42,408 nt of DNA from Tannerella sp. GTDB lineage: Bacteria > Bacteroidota > Bacteroidia > Bacteroidales > Tannerellaceae. How positions within the stretch are numbered: position 1 is the first letter of the stretch; each line of letters starts with the position of its first letter. Below are positions 9,856-36,115 of the stretch, one piece after another. The notes beneath the pieces were generated by a model that saw only the letters and a program-made list of their open reading frames with translations, had not been told where the DNA came from and searched no databases. A program made the translations under genes and the position numbers. Where the stretch lies: assembly GCA_031276175.1 (NCBI GenBank), contig JAISNP010000121.1:1-42408 (forward strand). Direction: 5' to 3'.

Positions 9856-9999
9856 ACAATTCTCCCCTTCGGGAAAGACACACGCAGCCCGCGTGCGGAC
9901 GAAACTGCTACTCCGTGGCACGGCAAACCGTTTCCCTAATCCGGAATACATCTCATTTACGGAAACAGACCCTTTTTCTACGGCAATAACCTGAATATT
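9856..9999. other. Intergenic spacer before the 21-bp array
   Basis: Non-coding stretch after the second M28 gene. No ATG, convincing terminator or promoter was found. An in-frame TAA near 9933 closes the repeat reading frame on its upstream side. Confidence 0.5.
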
Positions 10000-10587
10000 G
10001 TCGACGCCTCCGCCCAAAGTGTCGACGCCTCCGCCAAGGTTGTCGACGCCTGCGCCGAAAGTGTCGACGTCTCCGCACAAAGTGTCGACGTCTCCGCCCA
10101 AAGTGTCGACGCCTCCGCCCAAAGTGTCGACGCCTCCGCCGAAAGTGTCGACGTCTCCGCCAAGAATGTCGACGTTGTCGCCAAGAATGTCGACGTTGTC
10201 GCCAAGAATGTCGACGTTGTCACGAAGAATGTCGACGTTGTCGCAAAGAATGTCGACGTTGTCACGAAGAATGTCGACGTTGTCGCCAAGAATGTCGACG
10301 TTGTCACGAAGAATGTCGACGTTGTCGCGAAGAATGTCGACGTTGTCGCCAAGAATGTCGACGTTGTCGCCAAGAATGTCGACGTTGTCGCGAAGAATGT
10401 CGACGTTGTCACGAAGAATGTCGACGTTGTCACGAAGAATGTCGACGTTGTCGCCGAGAATGTCGACGTTGCCGGCAAGAATGTCGACGTTGTCGCAAAG
10501 AATGTCGACGTTGTCGCCAAGAATGTCGACGTTGTCACGAAGAATGTCGACGTTGTCGCAAAGAATGTCGACGTTGTCGGCAATAGT
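10000..10587. repeat. Tandem array: 28 copies of a 21-bp unit starting GTCGAC
   Basis: GTCGAC recurs every 21 bp without a break from 10000 to 10567, giving 28 units. Units 1-7 are one subtype (GCC/GTC TCC after GTCGAC, ending AAAGT or similar), unit 8 is a hybrid, and units 9-28 are a second subtype (GTTGTC, ending AAGAAT). In the frame GTC GAC GTT GTC the array reads as heptads V-D-V-V-A/T-K-N, and the last-codon changes GCC, GCA and GCG are silent. Frame has no start codon upstream and runs out into antisense dinB, so an intact gene is not claimed. Array is open in other frames too because the unit is a multiple of three. Confidence 0.95.
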
Positions 10588-10697
10588 TTCGGAACAATGA
10601 CAGGTTTTGCGTATATCAAGATCGTTTTTTACAGGCGGTGTCCATCAAAAAGCGGATTCGGGAAACGAGTGGCGGTAAAATCCGGCGTTTACGGAGA
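10588..10697. other. Spacer between the 21-bp array and dinB
   Basis: About 110 bp downstream of dinB on the minus strand. No strong terminator hairpin is evident. Confidence 0.4.
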
Positions 10698-18319: not shown

Positions 18320-18693
18320 TTATCGTATAAAATAAGTCTTCTTCAATACGTCTTATTTACTTCTTACTTTGTAAGATAAGTATTCTTACCATATAAGGCA
18401 AGTATTCTTACTATGTAAGGTAAGTATTCTTACCGTACAAGATAAGTCTTCTTACCGCATAAGGTAAGTCTTCTTACCGTGCAAGGTAAGTCTTCTTACC
18501 GTATAAAGTAAGTCTTCTTACCGTGTAAGGTAAGTCGTCTTACCGTGTAAGGTAAGTCGTCTTACCGTGTAAGGTAAGTCATCTTACCATGTAAGGTAAG
18601 TCTTCTTACCGTGTAAGGTAAGTCGTCTTACCATGTAAGGTAAGTCGTCTTACCATGTAAGGTAAGTCTTCTTACCGTGCAAGGTAAGTCTTC
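18320..18693. repeat. Tandem array: 17 copies of a 22-bp hairpin unit
   Basis: Seventeen head-to-tail 22-bp units. Each has arm CTTACC, a 6-nt loop such as GTGTAA, arm GGTAAG and a 4-nt spacer such as TCTT. Because every arm is flanked on both sides by its complement, each can pair with the left or the right neighbour. Units at the left end (18320-18410) are most diverged; those from about 18496 on are nearly identical. Array lies between the divergent promoters of the AraC gene and the ABC-F gene. No spacers of unique sequence are present, so it is not a CRISPR array. Confidence 0.95.
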
Positions 18694-18942
18694 TTTAATC
18701 GAAATATTTTTTTCTTTATTGTATATGCAAATGTAGATATTTTCACGGTATGAGGAGAAAAAGGCTGTATTTTTCACGTTTTTTCGTGTATTTAGGGCTT
18801 GCGGGCGGATGTTTTGCGCGTAAATCGTTTGTACGGACGGGATGCGGGTGATGCGGGGCGGGGCGGACGGAGCGGGGCGTTCACGATGTGCGGCGGATGC
18901 GGGCAAAACTGCGCCGCGCTCGCCTGCTTTGCGTAAAATGTG
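18694..18942. other. Intergenic region between the hairpin array and the ABC-F promoter
   Basis: An AT-rich part with a small CACG/CGTG hairpin near 18777-18790, then a G-rich part (18840-18905). No gene was recognised. The second half may be promoter-distal DNA. Confidence 0.4.
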
Positions 18943-23937: not shown

Positions 23938-26900
23938 TCAGTCTTCGCCTCCGCCCAGCGCACGATACAGATCAATCACCGTCTGCGCCTTTTCCAGATT
24001 GTCGCCGGTAATCGCGAGTTGGGCGTTCAGGTAGTTTTGCTGTGCGGTAAGGACTTCGAGGTAAGTGGCCTCGCCGGCACGGAGAAGTTCCTGCGTATAA
24101 TCTGCCGCTTTGCGCAACGATTCTATCTGCCCGGCACGGACGCCGGTTTTCGCCTGCGCCTTTTCGTAGGTATAAAGTATGTCGGACACTTCGCTCGCTG
24201 CCGTCAGTACTGTTTTCTGAAAATTCAGAAACGCTTCGTCTTCCTGCGCTTTCGCAATTTTCACCTGCGCACGCAACTGTTTACCGGCAAACAGAGGCTG
24301 CGTCAGTCCGCCGATGACATTTGCAAACAGGTTTTCGGGACGGAAAAAATCGGCCGGCGATGCCGCGCCGTAACCGGCCATCGACCCCGAACCGAGAGTA
24401 AGCGACGGATAGAGGGCGGCCTGCGCTACATTGTGCAATTCGAAAGCGGCGCGAAATTGAAGTTCCGCCGCACGTACGTCGGGACGCAATGCCAGCATCT
24501 GCGCCGGGACGCCGTGGGGAAGAGGCGTATCCGGCGCCTTCCACGTATCAAACGAACGGCGTGCAATTGCGCCGGGCTTGCGACCGAGCATCACCGACAA
24601 AACATTCTCCAGCTTGTATATCGCAAGTTCGAGGTTCAGCGCCGACGCCTGGGTAGAAAGTTTCAAGGCATTGCTCTGTTCCACTGCGGCGGCGTTCAGA
24701 AAACCGGCATCCATCATCGCCTGCATCGAACGGTGGCTGTCGTCCAGCAGGCGAACGGTTTCGTTCGAGATTCTCAACTGTTCGTCCAGCGCCATCAGCG
24801 TATAGTATGAAGTGGCAATCGTCGATACCAGCGACGTTTGTATCAACCGCCTGTATTCATGGCTGCTCAAATATTGTGCATATCTTGCACGCGCCTGACG
24901 GTTAAGCTTGCCCCACAAATCCACTTCCCACTGCACTGCGACGCCGAGACGGTACTGGTTACTGCCGTACCCCAATGCGTCGACGACGTCATTCCGTACG
25001 CTTGTCCGCGCATGAGTCACTTGTCCGTTCAGCGAAACCACCGGGAAATATGCCGCACGGGCTACCTGCAATCCTGCTTCCGCCGACTGTATCCGCAAAT
25101 ACGCCGCGCGAAGATCGAAGTTCTCACGAAGCCCTTCTTCAATGAGGCTTTGCAGGTTCGTATCCGTAAAATATTCCGCCCAGGGGATGGCAGCAACCGT
25201 TGTCGTATCATCGTGACCGAAATCGGCCGTACGGTACAAATCCGTCGTATCTACTTCGGGCGATTGATACTTGTGGATTACCTGACACGACGAAACACTT
25301 GCGGTAAGCGCTATGCCGACTACTGCAACCTGCGCCGCATTAACCAAACCCGACTTGGAGAATTTCTCCTGAAGCAACTGGAATATGATATATAACGAAG
25401 GCACGACCAGCACACCAAGCAACGTGCCGGTTAACATCCCGCCGATGGCCGAAATACCGATTGACCGGTTACCGATTGCTCCGGCTCCCGACGCAAGCGC
25501 CAGCGGCAACAGTCCGAAAATAAGGGCAAACGAAGTCATCAATATCGGACGCAGACGCGCCACCGCGCCCTGAATTGCCGCTTCGACGACACTCATCCCC
25601 TGCCGCCTGCGCTGCACGGCGTATTCCACAATCAAAATCGCATTCTTCGCAAGCAACCCTATCAGCATGATCAGCGAAATTTGAACATAAATATTGTTTA
25701 CGATACCCGTCCCCATTGCCATACCGCCGTATATAAACACATAAACTCCGGCCAGACCGATCGGCAACGAACATATTACCGCCAGCGGAAGGATATAACT
25801 CTCATACAGCGCGGCCAGCAACAAGTAGACAAATATCAGACAAAGAGCCAGAATCATGTAGGTCTGTTCTCCGCTTTTCACCTCTTCGCGCGTCATTCCC
25901 GAAAAATCGTATGTGAAATTATCGGGCAAAACCTCTTCCGCCACTTCTTTAACTGCCCTGAGTACATCGCCGTTGGCGTAACCGGCGACATAATCGGGCA
26001 TAATCGTCAGGTTCATGGACGAATACATATTGAAACGGCTCAGCGTCTGCGGCGCGGTTACGTCGCGAACAGTCAGAAACTCCGTCACGGGCGCCATCTC
26101 GCCCGAAGCCGTACGGACGAAATATCCGTTCAGGTCGTCCAGTTTCTCGCGATATTCGGGCGAGGCTTGCACCATCACGCGATACTGCTTGCCGTAAAGA
26201 TTGAAATCGGACACATACATGCTGCCCACATAAGCCTGTAATGTACTCATCACTTGTCCCAGCGTCAGACCTGCCTCTTTTATTTTGGCAATATCCGCTT
26301 CGAGTTGTTTCTGGGGAAAATTCGGATTGAACGTCGTCATTGCCATCGTCACTTCGGGACGTTTGCGCATGGCGTCGAGAAAACGGTTGGTCGTTTCGAA
26401 AAAATAATTTATGTCGCCGCCCGTGCGGTCTTGCATCTGTATTTCCACACCGTTGCTAAGCCCGAACCCCTGCAAGGTAGGCGTCCCCATAAAAATAAAC
26501 GTAGCGTCCTTGATATGCGCCGTCTTCTCTTTCAAAACGGCAGCTACTTCGTTTGTTGTAATCTTCCGTTGATTCCACGGATCCATCTTCAACTGAATGG
26601 TGGCATATGAACCGCCCATACCACTCATAAAGTTCACGCCTGCAAGCGACGCCACATGTTTTACATGCTCAATCTCCCGTGCAATATTGGTCACTTCGAG
26701 CACCACTTCGTGCGTCCTGTCGAGCGAAGCGCCCGGCGCCAGTGTCACCATGCCCATCACGCCGCCGCTGTCCTCCTGCGGCACGAATCCCGACGGGATG
26801 ATACGCATCATGGCAAAAAGCAACGCCGTCATGCCGAGGATAAGCGTCACCGTAATCCAGCGGTGACCGCGTTTCCCCAAAAAATGCAACGAACGCCGAT

Positions 26901-28473
26901 AACGCTCCGTGACCATCTGGAAACCCGTATTGAACATAAATGCAAAACGATTGAATATATTTTTCCGTTTTTCGCCCGTATGATGACCGCGCAGGAAAAT
27001 GGCGCACAAGGCAGGGCTTAACGTCAGGGCATTTACGGCAGAAATAAGAATCGAAACAGCCAGAGTCAGTCCGAACTGACGGTAAAACACGCCCGACGTC
27101 CCTCCGATGAAACTGACGGGAATAAACACGGCCGACATCACCAGCGTTATCGAAATGATAGCCGGCGCAATCTCCCGCATCGCCTTGAGCGCAGCTTCCC
27201 GTGCATTGGTCATGCCTGCGTCCAATTGCGCATGTACGGCCTCGACTACCACAATCGCATCATCCACCACAATCCCGATGGCCAGCACCAAAGCAAAAAG
27301 TGTCAGCAGGTTTACGGAGAATCCGAACAGTTCGAGAAAGAAAAACGTCCCTATGATGGCAACCGGTACGGCAATGGCAGGGATAAGCGTAGAACGGAAA
27401 TTTTGCAGGAACAAGAGTACTACGGCAAACACGAGCAGAAACGCCTCCAGCAACGTATGTATCACCTTTTCGATAGACGCATCAAGAAATTCGTTGGCAT
27501 CCTGCACGTAAACGATTTTCAGTCCCGGCGGAAACGAAGCCTCCGCGCTTTTCAGTTCCGCTTTGATGTTGTTGATGATTTCCTGCGCATTGGAGCCTGC
27601 CGTCTGATTAATGCCGATAGTCACGGATTCGTTTCCGTCCAATCGCGAGATGACATTATAGTTGAGTGCGCCGAGTTCGACCCGCGCCACATCGCGCAAG
27701 CGGAGAATCCGGCCGTTCATCGAGCGCACGACAACGTCTTCGTACTCGATTACGGATTTCAACCGGCCTGTATATTTTAATGTATACTGAAAGCTTTGCC
27801 TGCTCTCCTGTCCCAATTCACCGGGAGCGGCTTCGATATTCTGTTCCTGCAGGGCGGAGATGATTTCCTGCGGCGTAATCATGTATGCCGCCATCACATC
27901 GGGTTTCAGCCAGATACGCATCGAATAGTCGCGTGCGCCGTACACATTGGCATCGCCCACTCCCTTGACGCGCTTGATGGGCGGCAGCAGATGGATATTG
28001 GCGTAGTTTTGGAGAAACGTCTGGTCGTATTCGGGATTGCTTGTCGTAAAATTAATCATCAGGATAGTAGAACTTTGTTGCTTACGGACAGTCACGCCGA
28101 TTTGCGTCACTTCCTGCGGCAGACGGGGCGTGGCGCGTGCTACCTGATTTTGCACGTTCACGGCGGCAATGTCGGGGTTGATGCCTTTTTCAAAAAAGAC
28201 GGTGATGCTTGCACTGCCCGTGTTCGATGCCGAAGACGTCATGTACGTCATTCCTTCGACGCCGTTGATTTGTTCTTCCAGCGGAATCACAACAGCATTC
28301 ATCACCACATCCGCATTTGCGCCCGGATAGTTTGCCGAAACACGTACGGTGGGCGGCGCAATGTCCGGATACTGCTCGACGGGCAGCATAAACAGGCCGA
28401 TAATGCCCAATACCACGATAAGGATAGAGATAACTGTCGATAAAACGGGTCTGTCTATAAATGTCTTCAACAT
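23938..28473 (-). CDS. RND efflux permease (HAE1/AcrB-like) fused to a TolC/OprM-like outer-membrane factor
   Basis: One open frame of 1511 codons. Residues 1 to about 1040 form a complete AcrB-like permease: MLKTFIDRPVLSTVISILIV start, two large periplasmic loops, the GIVVDDAIVVVEAV helix with the paired proton-relay Asps, and a last helix ending LYIIFQLLQEKF. Residues about 1047-1063 then form a basic, hydrophobic, lipobox segment (KSG...ALTASVSSC) with Cys1063. The remaining 449 residues look like an OprM/NodT-type outer-membrane factor (WEVDLWGKLNRQARAR; LRPDVRAAELQFRAA; TYLEVLTAQQNYLNAQ). The mature length after Cys1063 fits a stand-alone lipoprotein of that family. It follows its membrane fusion protein by 20 bp. 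Confidence 0.95.
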   Translation of the reverse strand: MLKTFIDRPVLSTVISILIVVLGIIGLFMLPVEQYPDIAPPTVRVSANYPGANADVVMNAVVIPLEEQINGVEGMTYMTSSASNTGSASITVFFEKGINPDIAAVNVQNQVARATPRLPQEVTQIGVTVRKQQSSTILMINFTTSNPEYDQTFLQNYANIHLLPPIKRVKGVGDANVYGARDYSMRIWLKPDVMAAYMITPQEIISALQEQNIEAAPGELGQESRQSFQYTLKYTGRLKSVIEYEDVVVRSMNGRILRLRDVARVELGALNYNVISRLDGNESVTIGINQTAGSNAQEIINNIKAELKSAEASFPPGLKIVYVQDANEFLDASIEKVIHTLLEAFLLVFAVVLLFLQNFRSTLIPAIAVPVAIIGTFFFLELFGFSVNLLTLFALVLAIGIVVDDAIVVVEAVHAQLDAGMTNAREAALKAMREIAPAIISITLVMSAVFIPVSFIGGTSGVFYRQFGLTLAVSILISAVNALTLSPALCAIFLRGHHTGEKRKNIFNRFAFMFNTGFQMVTERYRRSLHFLGKRGHRWITVTLILGMTALLFAMMRIIPSGFVPQEDSGGVMGMVTLAPGASLDRTHEVVLEVTNIAREIEHVKHVASLAGVNFMSGMGGSYATIQLKMDPWNQRKITTNEVAAVLKEKTAHIKDATFIFMGTPTLQGFGLSNGVEIQMQDRTGGDINYFFETTNRFLDAMRKRPEVTMAMTTFNPNFPQKQLEADIAKIKEAGLTLGQVMSTLQAYVGSMYVSDFNLYGKQYRVMVQASPEYREKLDDLNGYFVRTASGEMAPVTEFLTVRDVTAPQTLSRFNMYSSMNLTIMPDYVAGYANGDVLRAVKEVAEEVLPDNFTYDFSGMTREEVKSGEQTYMILALCLIFVYLLLAALYESYILPLAVICSLPIGLAGVYVFIYGGMAMGTGIVNNIYVQISLIMLIGLLAKNAILIVEYAVQRRRQGMSVVEAAIQGAVARLRPILMTSFALIFGLLPLALASGAGAIGNRSIGISAIGGMLTGTLLGVLVVPSLYIIFQLLQEKFSKSGLVNAAQVAVVGIALTASVSSCQVIHKYQSPEVDTTDLYRTADFGHDDTTTVAAIPWAEYFTDTNLQSLIEEGLRENFDLRAAYLRIQSAEAGLQVARAAYFPVVSLNGQVTHARTSVRNDVVDALGYGSNQYRLGVAVQWEVDLWGKLNRQARARYAQYLSSHEYRRLIQTSLVSTIATSYYTLMALDEQLRISNETVRLLDDSHRSMQAMMDAGFLNAAAVEQSNALKLSTQASALNLELAIYKLENVLSVMLGRKPGAIARRSFDTWKAPDTPLPHGVPAQMLALRPDVRAAELQFRAAFELHNVAQAALYPSLTLGSGSMAGYGAASPADFFRPENLFANVIGGLTQPLFAGKQLRAQVKIAKAQEDEAFLNFQKTVLTAASEVSDILYTYEKAQAKTGVRAGQIESLRKAADYTQELLRAGEATYLEVLTAQQNYLNAQLAITGDNLEKAQTVIDLYRALGGGED

Positions 28474-31621: not shown

Positions 31622-32494
31622 ATGTCAACCAAAATGAAACATGTTAATTTATTATGTACATCGGATATGATGTCTCCATCGGCTGAAAGCCGCAATCTTC
31701 ATTTATTATTGCAGCGTCCGGACGACGGAATAAACAGCCCTTTTTCGGGAAAAGACGAAAAATCCTCGCGCGTGTTTGAAATAAACACGCGCGTGGATTC
31801 AGGCATTTTTCACGCCCCGGAAGTCTTTCCGCACGAACGACGGCTTCCGGCACGGAAGATTGCGGCTTCCGGCCGGTTGGGGTATTATATCCGATATACA
31901 TTTAATTTATTCATACTGTTAACGGTTGCCTGCGGCATATTCGCGTGCACGGGAAACAGGAAACCGGGACAAGACACGCAGGAAGGTGCGGAAAAATCCG
32001 ACGGACAGATTGTTACCGACACGGAACATCAGGCCGACGACAGAGGATACATTGTCAAAGTCGGCGACATGGCGCCCGATTTTACGATGACGACGATTGC
32101 CGGCAAGACGGTCAAACTCTCCGATTTGCGCGGCAAGGTGGTGATGCTACAGTTCACGGCAAGCTGGTGTGTCGTATGCCGCAAGGAGATGCCTTTTATA
32201 GAGAAGGATATATGGCTGAAGCACAAGGATAATCCGAAATTCGCCCTGTACGGCATCGACCGCGACGAACCGCAGGAAACCGTGGAGCAGTTTGTCTCGC
32301 AAACGGGCGTAACCTATCCGATGGGACTTGACCCCGGCGCAGACATTTTTGCCCTCTACGCCGAGCGCAAAGCAGGAATCACGCGAAACGTGATTGTCGA
32401 TTCCGAAGGCCGTATTGTTTTGCTGACCCGCCTGTATGATCCGGACGAATTTGCTTCGATGTGTCTGAAAATAGACGAATTGTTGACGGACTGA
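31622..32494 (+). CDS. TlpA-like thioredoxin lipoprotein, interrupted in frame by a palindromic element
   Basis: The 290-codon frame ends in a thioredoxin-like domain (about 147-290) with VGDMAPDFTM, the redox pair C183-C186 in SWCVVC, and a late GITRNVIVDSEG segment. Residues 94-109 (FNLFILLTVACGIFAC) are the core of a lipoprotein signal with Cys109. The first residues MSTKMKHVNL are separated from that core by 86 codons supplied by a 248-bp inserted element plus a 10-bp duplication. Joining across it restores a normal signal, MKHVNLFILLTVACGIFAC. The product may start instead at the TTG codon at 31877 inside the element, giving MGYYIRYTFNLF. Whether the protein is still exported is not known. 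Confidence 0.85.
   Translation: MSTKMKHVNLLCTSDMMSPSAESRNLHLLLQRPDDGINSPFSGKDEKSSRVFEINTRVDSGIFHAPEVFPHERRLPARKIAASGRLGYYIRYTFNLFILLTVACGIFACTGNRKPGQDTQEGAEKSDGQIVTDTEHQADDRGYIVKVGDMAPDFTMTTIAGKTVKLSDLRGKVVMLQFTASWCVVCRKEMPFIEKDIWLKHKDNPKFALYGIDRDEPQETVEQFVSQTGVTYPMGLDPGADIFALYAERKAGITRNVIVDSEGRIVLLTRLYDPDEFASMCLKIDELLTD
31644..31911. mobile_element. MITE-like palindromic element with 10-bp target duplication
   Basis: The element spans 31654-31901 (248 bp) and is flanked by direct repeats TTAATTTATT at 31644-31653 and 31902-31911. Its ends are inverted copies, ATGTACATCGGATAT on the left and the complement of ATGTATATCGGATAT on the right (14 of 15 match). A second mirrored block lies 31 bp in from each end (31685-31700 and 31855-31870). 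The centre is a perfect 11-bp hairpin, CGCGCGTGTTT with AAACACGCGCG (31767-31793). Element plus one repeat is 258 bp, so the reading frame continues through it. It encodes no transposase. Confidence 0.88.

Positions 32495-36058: not shown

Positions 36059-36115
<57 letters not shown>

Follow-up and report, generated by a model that had tools for sequence, protein, structure and literature searches.

A palindromic MITE with a 21-bp minisatellite centre, inserted in frame in a lipoprotein gene of Tannerella sp.

The 248-bp palindromic insert in a TlpA-like lipoprotein gene of Tannerella sp. is a non-autonomous transposable element (MITE). It lies in the window, the whole 42,408-nucleotide stretch of DNA that was analysed, which is contig C48 of a 2.79-Mb draft genome (145 contigs, 90.8% complete). 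With a probability of roughly 0.85, it is one copy of a species-restricted MITE family that has 21-bp dyad units in variable number as a central minisatellite, and this copy inserted in frame, probably by chance, with a gene product that would be reduced or mislocalised. MITEs are short (about 50-1000 bp), multicopy and without a transposase gene. The family described here agrees with this in size and copy number, and it has terminal inverted repeats and a target-site duplication. The features of the insertion in the window are the following:

31622..32494, plus strand: interrupted open reading frame of a TlpA/AhpC-TSA-type lipoprotein (Redoxin 9e-23, AhpC-TSA 7e-21; orthologues L142-L163)
31644..31653, plus strand: left target-site duplication, 10 bp, TTAATTTATT, from flank comparison
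31654..31901, plus strand: MITE-like element, 248 bp (a 248-bp copy, 95% identical, is found in the own-genome contig G000:C21, L023 834-1081)
31654..31684, plus strand: outer part of the left terminal inverted repeat (ATGTACATCGGATATGATG...), with the family end motif TATATCGGATATGATACC
31685..31700, plus strand: left inner mirrored block, 15/16 against the reverse complement of 31855-31870
31761..31799, plus strand: central hairpin, the two-unit form of the 21-bp dyad array (16/17 paired; other copies have longer arrays)
31855..31870, plus strand: right inner mirrored block, counterpart of the left one
31871..31901, plus strand: outer part of the right terminal inverted repeat, from the inverted-repeat match
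31877..31879, plus strand: TTG in frame with the gene, candidate new start for a short lipoprotein signal
31902..31911, plus strand: right target-site duplication, 10 bp, TTAATTTATT, from flank comparison

The outer 31 bp of both ends are inverted repeats (23/31 matching), and the inner mirrored blocks, which sit 31 bp in from each end, match at 15 of 16 positions. The whole 47-bp arms of the window copy are 81% complementary, and the two flanking repeats are identical at 10/10 positions. An earlier note, made from the sequence alone, had described a 248-bp element with mirrored ends, an inner block at 31 bp and 10-bp direct repeats, and the coordinates were confirmed. The note had also called the central hairpin perfect: the hairpin is present, but its arms (31761-31777 and 31783-31799) form 16 of 17 pairs (94%), hence it is near-perfect. 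The element plus one repeat spans 258 bp (i.e., 86 codons), which is divisible by three and has zero stops in the gene frame, and the TTG at 31877 is in that frame by position, both as the note had stated. Compared with dinucleotide shuffles, either strand of the element folds as RNA about 10 SD more strongly (0 of 200 shuffles were as good), and the start region with the element has a predicted fold of about -119 kcal/mol.

When the element was searched against the DNA of its own genome, 119 local matches were obtained (E up to 10), and the end motif, with up to three mismatches, yielded 59 matches versus one for a reversed-pattern control. Merging the stronger matches at 1 kb left about 52 distinct places, including the 95%-identical 248-bp copy, which makes the proposed transposable palindrome a multicopy family. 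These places fall into two subfamilies. The first one, with approximately 20 places (the window, L023-L039, L041 and L054), has a 21-bp tandem array between a left and a right part, in constant order, the number of array units going from two (the window and L023) to roughly 18 (L027); some of its copies are truncated or cut. The earlier note did not describe this variable minisatellite. The second one (L042-L061, L132, L134 and L139) has the common ends around other GC-rich palindromic interiors (e.g., L050, L052, L055, L059 and L139), and its smallest member is a 111-bp mini-element. Over the 47-bp arms, 32 to 40 positions pair in the other complete copies of the first subfamily, and 22 to 30 in the second. 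Given the 14 complete copies measure 111 to 479 bp, they are too short to hold a transposase gene. Mosaics were also observed, in which the common end or the left half runs into a different CTCGGAGYTAACTCCGAGAGG-like 21-bp array (L024 at about 700-994, where the right half is this different array, as well as L123, L126, L128 and L129). In L053, downstream of the end at 775, an inverted repeat AGGGGCTGTATCAAAAGT ... ACTTTTGATACAGCCCC seems, by eye, to be nested in a second-subfamily copy.

The downstream 197 residues of the interrupted protein have matches in 38 of the 41 genus genomes, own genome counted. Among the 22 closest orthologous loci, 21 have a readable N-terminus (the remaining one, L161, is cut by a contig end), and 0/21 carry an insert; the N-termini of L155 and L159 differ from the others and lack the lipobox cysteine. 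The nearest orthologue, in genome G028, begins MKRITLFLFSVIACGMFACTGN, and joining the window flanks with one repeat gives (M)KHVNLFILLTVACGIFACTGN. From this comparison, the native start of the lipoprotein gene is most likely ATG 31634, in which case the duplication would cover parts of codons 4-7. As for the surroundings, the locus of G024 (L143) likewise has a neighbour of the 3-keto-disaccharide-hydrolase type upstream, with 81% identity, and no match to this neighbour was found in the fetched flank at the other 7 of the 8 orthologous loci tested. Judged by their N-termini, the orthologous loci are clean empty sites. Hence, uninterrupted orthologues of the thioredoxin gene do exist in related genomes, and the central claim of the earlier note, a transposable palindrome in frame within a lipoprotein signal peptide, stands on a multicopy family, its duplications and empty orthologous sites.

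The events would have proceeded as follows. A transposase supplied in trans would have acted on the ATGTATATCGGATATGATACC ends and inserted the element into an AT-rich target, with a stagger of about 10 bp that we infer from the observed duplication. The family settles mostly between genes, and the window copy landed in codons 4-7 of the TlpA-like lipoprotein gene. The gene retains one long frame because the insert measures 258 bp with its duplication and is open in that phase. The lipoprotein signal would be shifted 86 residues inward, so that, counting from start 31634, the hydrophobic signal would come at about residue 90. The start region of the mRNA would acquire a very stable hairpin. 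Given the displaced signal and the start-region hairpin, less exported lipoprotein is expected: the strength of the mRNA hairpin would argue for lower translation, and the exported lipoprotein is probably reduced or mislocalised.

As a minority alternative to this outcome, re-initiation at TTG 31877 would restore a short signal. The insertion would then be domesticated, with 23 residues before the cysteine, a product that is still lipidated and a hairpin that retunes expression. This reading would draw on the TTG being in frame, on the resulting short signal, which would have an Arg before the hydrophobic stretch and the native lipobox, and on the frame of the gene itself, which is intact downstream of the insertion. 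However, the TTG lies within strongly paired sequence, and the native ATG 31634 remains and would compete with it. We therefore regard domestication as doubtful, although it is the alternative that fares best.

It is less likely still that the element behaves as a coding palindrome of the Rickettsia type, a kind of element to which the earlier note had compared it; such a palindrome would be adapted to in-frame insertion in genes and supply a tolerated peptide module. This reading starts from the frame in the window and from the in-frame position of the element at the 5' side of two other genes, of which the one at L023 encodes a TPR lipoprotein and the one at L037 is a ROK-kinase-like frame. 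In 8 of the 9 complete copies of the first subfamily, moreover, the length plus 10 is divisible by three (the exception, L039, has a degenerate left end), which fits frame selection if the copies are independent. In those eight copies, 12 of the 48 phases are open versus 1.8% of the phases in mononucleotide shuffles of the window copy, and most copies have one open phase. The long open phase of the element shows 7-residue repeats. The 248-bp window element itself is open in two of its six phases, one per strand, because in a palindrome an open phase on one strand tends to have its mirror image on the opposite one. This makes its open frame less remarkable than it appears.

A protein-coding element was thus first suggested by the divisible lengths and the open phase, yet it failed in the codon test and in the indel comparison. 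The codon test considered 11 of the 15 left halves (L028, L030, L031 and L039 were left out), whose 33 unique substitutions are distributed as 9/12/12 among the codon positions. They comprise 7 synonymous changes, 25 nonsynonymous ones and 1 stop, where neutrality predicts 25%, 72% and 3%. These values make the substitutions in the open frame look neutral, with no sign of protein selection, which largely refutes the coding reading. A 4-nt indel splits the right halves into two subtypes in different phases, and L039 and L027 are out of phase.

The gene context points the same way. According to our own gene calling, a called gene spans the element at 0 of the 53 other loci, where the second-subfamily loci are mostly represented by the left end alone, and the chance end matches L135, L136, L138 and L140 (4 of the 18 loci of one set) were dropped. 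Partial overlaps with a gene call occur at 5/53 loci: L023, whose downstream gene is modelled with a start within the element, L039 (4 bp), and L030, L129 and L131, where it was the array itself that was called. At 11/53 loci no gene was called at all, and intergenic status there means the absence of a call. The window copy is hence the one locus out of 54 that is spanned by a gene. At L023, the fusion is a 5' extension rather than an interruption, since the orthologue in G062 starts downstream of the corresponding point and has no such extension. The likeness to Rickettsia palindromes drawn by the earlier note is therefore not borne out in behaviour: none of the other loci is spanned, the substitutions are neutral, and L039 and L027 do not preserve the frame. 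On the evidence of its substitutions, the element itself is without selection as a protein. The in-frame fit of the window copy is best interpreted as an accident that was tolerated, and probably as luck, given the palindrome is open in 2/6 phases and 258 is divisible by three.

Selection on RNA was considered as well. Over the 14 copies, arm mismatches comprise 40 G.U and 39 A.C, and therefore neither RNA strand is favoured. Compensatory change in the array dyads was likewise rejected: for the outer arms, pairing with the own unit is about the same as with other units in five arrays (2.09 versus 1.68 in L030, the rest about equal), and for the spacer arms the values are 2.08 versus 1.91 of 5 (96 units), being clearly higher in L035 and L040 alone.

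Regarding transposition, the insertion targets are AT-rich, and duplications recur beyond the window. With 10-bp flanks, the identity is 10/10 in the window, 9/10 in L023, L028 and L034, 8/10 in L033 and L050, and 7/10 in L039. L035 presents a 12/12 duplication, whose length of 12 bp lowers its score to 4/10 in a comparison fixed at 10 bp. In 6 of the 14 complete copies the unshifted duplications are poor (1-6/10), four of those copies being from the second subfamily. Over the 14 complete copies, the identity between left and right flanks adds up to 87, while random re-pairings average 65.6, and 1 of 20,000 permutations reached the observed value. This test left out the copies with poor right ends (L042, L043, L047 and L130) and those at contig ends (L132 and L134), and L028 was added by hand. 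Copies flanked by different duplications, as the transposition reading of the earlier note implies, thus recur elsewhere in the genome.

The source transposase was not found when DDE_Tnp_1 and Y1_Tnp were searched in this 90.8%-complete draft. The seven DDE_Tnp_1 matches are fragments or short frames, and their loci have no element ends. Y1_Tnp has a single match in the genome, on contig C38. REP/RAYT systems have a linked Y1 transposase, and a REP/BIME-type repeat spread by such an enzyme would share with this family a palindromic, multicopy and mostly intergenic nature. However, none of the copies obtained in the DNA and end-motif searches lies on C38, and the element has flanking duplications and long terminal inverted repeats, which REPs are not known to have. 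A spread of this type is hence very unlikely. Even less credible is an assembly chimera joining two loci through the repeat, since, although at least eight contig ends lie inside element copies and the repeat therefore stressed the assembly, orthology assigns both flanks to a single gene, and the 10-bp duplication that they share is perfect.

The family has a narrow distribution. Among the 60 relatives searched, 56 gave zero matches to the element; the others are G004 with 11 matches, G029 with nine (array units only), G023 with three, and G057 with one of 22 nt. The copies in G004 and G023 are of the second subfamily. In G029 (L010 165-440 and L022 1455-1735), 21-bp arrays of the ACGCGCGT type were observed without element ends, those of L022 being bounded by inverted flanks like AAAAAAAGACGG ... 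CCGTCTTTTTT. Seven further genomes yielded one 26-nt match in all. A wide distribution was considered and rejected: the exact end pattern has 30 matches in a large contig collection, which equals the chance expectation (2 x 257 Gb / 4^17 = 30), and 4 of these 30 have any BLAST match to the four query elements, 18-33 nt long. The single viral match to the end pattern shares nothing beyond the pattern, and the search of plasmids returned two matches, both to the thioredoxin gene, and 0 to the element. An Rfam scan of six element loci gave no match, and no description of this element was found in the literature searched, which comprised open-licence papers.

The centre of the element is a two-unit example of dyad-bearing arrays with a period of about 21 or about 42 bp, which are frequent in intergenic DNA. 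In the array census, arrays under 100 bp or with a period under 10 were dropped, and the class was defined as a period of 20-23 bp or a multiple of it up to four. The own-genome sample of 434 kb, which includes the window and stretches from large contigs and is not random, contains 37 arrays (8.5 per 100 kb), with 34/37 in the class. The single-contig congener G030 presents 67 arrays in 400 kb (16.8 per 100 kb), with 62/67 in the class. Both shares are slightly inflated because the class limits widen with the multiples (60-69, 80-92). The smallest autocorrelation period is 20-23 in 29/37 arrays of the own genome (21 alone in 22/37), and 40-44 in 55/67 arrays of G030 (about 41-42 bp). By our own gene calling, 33/34 class arrays in the own genome and 61/62 in G030 are intergenic, and together with periods that are not divisible by three (20, 22, 23, 40 and 41) this position argues against a coding cause. 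Extrapolation from the samples suggests some 240 arrays in the own genome and 500 in G030. Examples are found in the window at 9999-10583 and 18360-18695, and in L209-L228 and L229-L248.

In the own genome and in G030, respectively, 56% and 61% of the units have a dyad score of at least 6, versus 10% and 7% of shuffled units. The units fall into 25 clusters in the 34 class arrays of the own genome and into 41 in the 62 of G030, and therefore most units are unrelated in sequence. Matches between array flanks number four in the own genome and 138 in G030, part of the latter coming from neighbouring arrays with overlapping flanks.

Elsewhere in the genus, arrays are unevenly spread: five were found in 62 kb of G004 (one 69 bp), three in 77 kb of G015, two in 65 kb of G013, two in 51 kb of G017 (with a 36-bp period, outside the class) and one in 24 kb of G028, and none were found in G022 (100 kb), G026 (55 kb) and G024 (53 kb). 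Gene-centred loci of various congeners, 145 kb in total, contain only one array (46 bp), and four other genera of the order have 0, 1, 1 and 0 arrays per 100 kb. In the window, a 21-bp array at 10146-10583 stands upstream of the gene at 10638. Upstream of the orthologues of this gene, an array of at least 100 bp is present at 0/15 congener loci, 4/15 of which have under 400 bp upstream; shorter arrays were found in L300 (G023; 91 bp, 23-bp period) and L293 (G015; 58 bp, 21-bp period). The missing arrays may be taken to suggest fast array turnover.

A tentative reading of these results, which we hold to be possible rather than probable, is that the element core belongs to an intergenic minisatellite system present in some species of the genus, whose units are mostly unrelated and enriched in dyads, with a period kept near two or four turns of the helix (21 or 41-42 bp). 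What the arrays share would then be their phasing, either because a nucleoid or regulatory protein binds or shapes dyads that lie on one face of the helix, or because amplification has a two-turn step, and MITEs would capture and disperse the arrays. If a period of two or four turns, and not a sequence, is indeed what the arrays have in common, this would be a clue to a DNA-shaping function or to an unknown amplification mechanism.

Two other features of the window were observed. On the minus strand, 23938-28473 is a 1511-aa frame in which, by eye, an RND-type transporter seems to be joined to an outer-membrane-factor lipoprotein. At 36060-36112, an uninterrupted (AG)26.5 tract lies in a short open frame and is a possible slippage site.

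The window copy is a clean case of a MITE in a coding gene in frame, probably by chance, which calls for caution against reading the open frames of palindromes as coding. The family is also a new entry among the few MITEs that contain a minisatellite, namely BrickBuilt, PgRS and BOX.

The closest architecture is that of BrickBuilt of Porphyromonas gingivalis. In the sections of the source consulted (PMC4596501), BrickBuilt is described as a MITE-like element found in P. gingivalis and P. gulae only, with 19 copies in ATCC 33277, composed of a leader, tandem 23-nt bricks whose number varies among strains, and a tail. The same sections report small inverted-repeat ends, long stem-loops, no internal transposase and no Rfam match, with ends GAGACCTTTGCA that match the IS5-family ISPg1/ISPg9. 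The duplications are given there as 2-7 nt as printed and as inconsistent, and the location as always intergenic. The likeness lies in common left and right parts around a tandem array of variable length. However, the unit is 21 bp here and 23 nt in BrickBuilt, the ATGTATATCGGATATGATACC / ATGTATATCGG ends of this family are without a known IS whereas BrickBuilt has GAGACCTTTGCA, the duplication is about 10 bp rather than 2-7 nt, and the window copy is inside a gene whereas BrickBuilt, in that account, is strictly intergenic. Given the differences in ends, unit, duplication length and strict intergenic habit, the element is not filed as BrickBuilt.

Rickettsia palindromic elements, as far as the consulted part of PMC10969869 describes them, are similar in being palindromic (by name), short and inserted in frame in genes, yet here 1/54 loci lies within a gene, and the evolution of the frame looks neutral. 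The consulted part of PMC3049150 describes the BOX elements of Streptococcus pneumoniae as boxA-(boxB)n-boxC, with a variable tandem centre, stem-loops and parasitic spread, and reports open frames on both strands in large BOX elements. They offer a parallel modular architecture in another phylum, and are likened to this element by architecture alone. Finally, the BrickBuilt source, in the same sections, presents MITE464/PgRS of P. gingivalis as a MITE with a 41-nt tandem array. This is the period class of the 41-42-bp arrays of the congener G030, to which it is likened by period alone.
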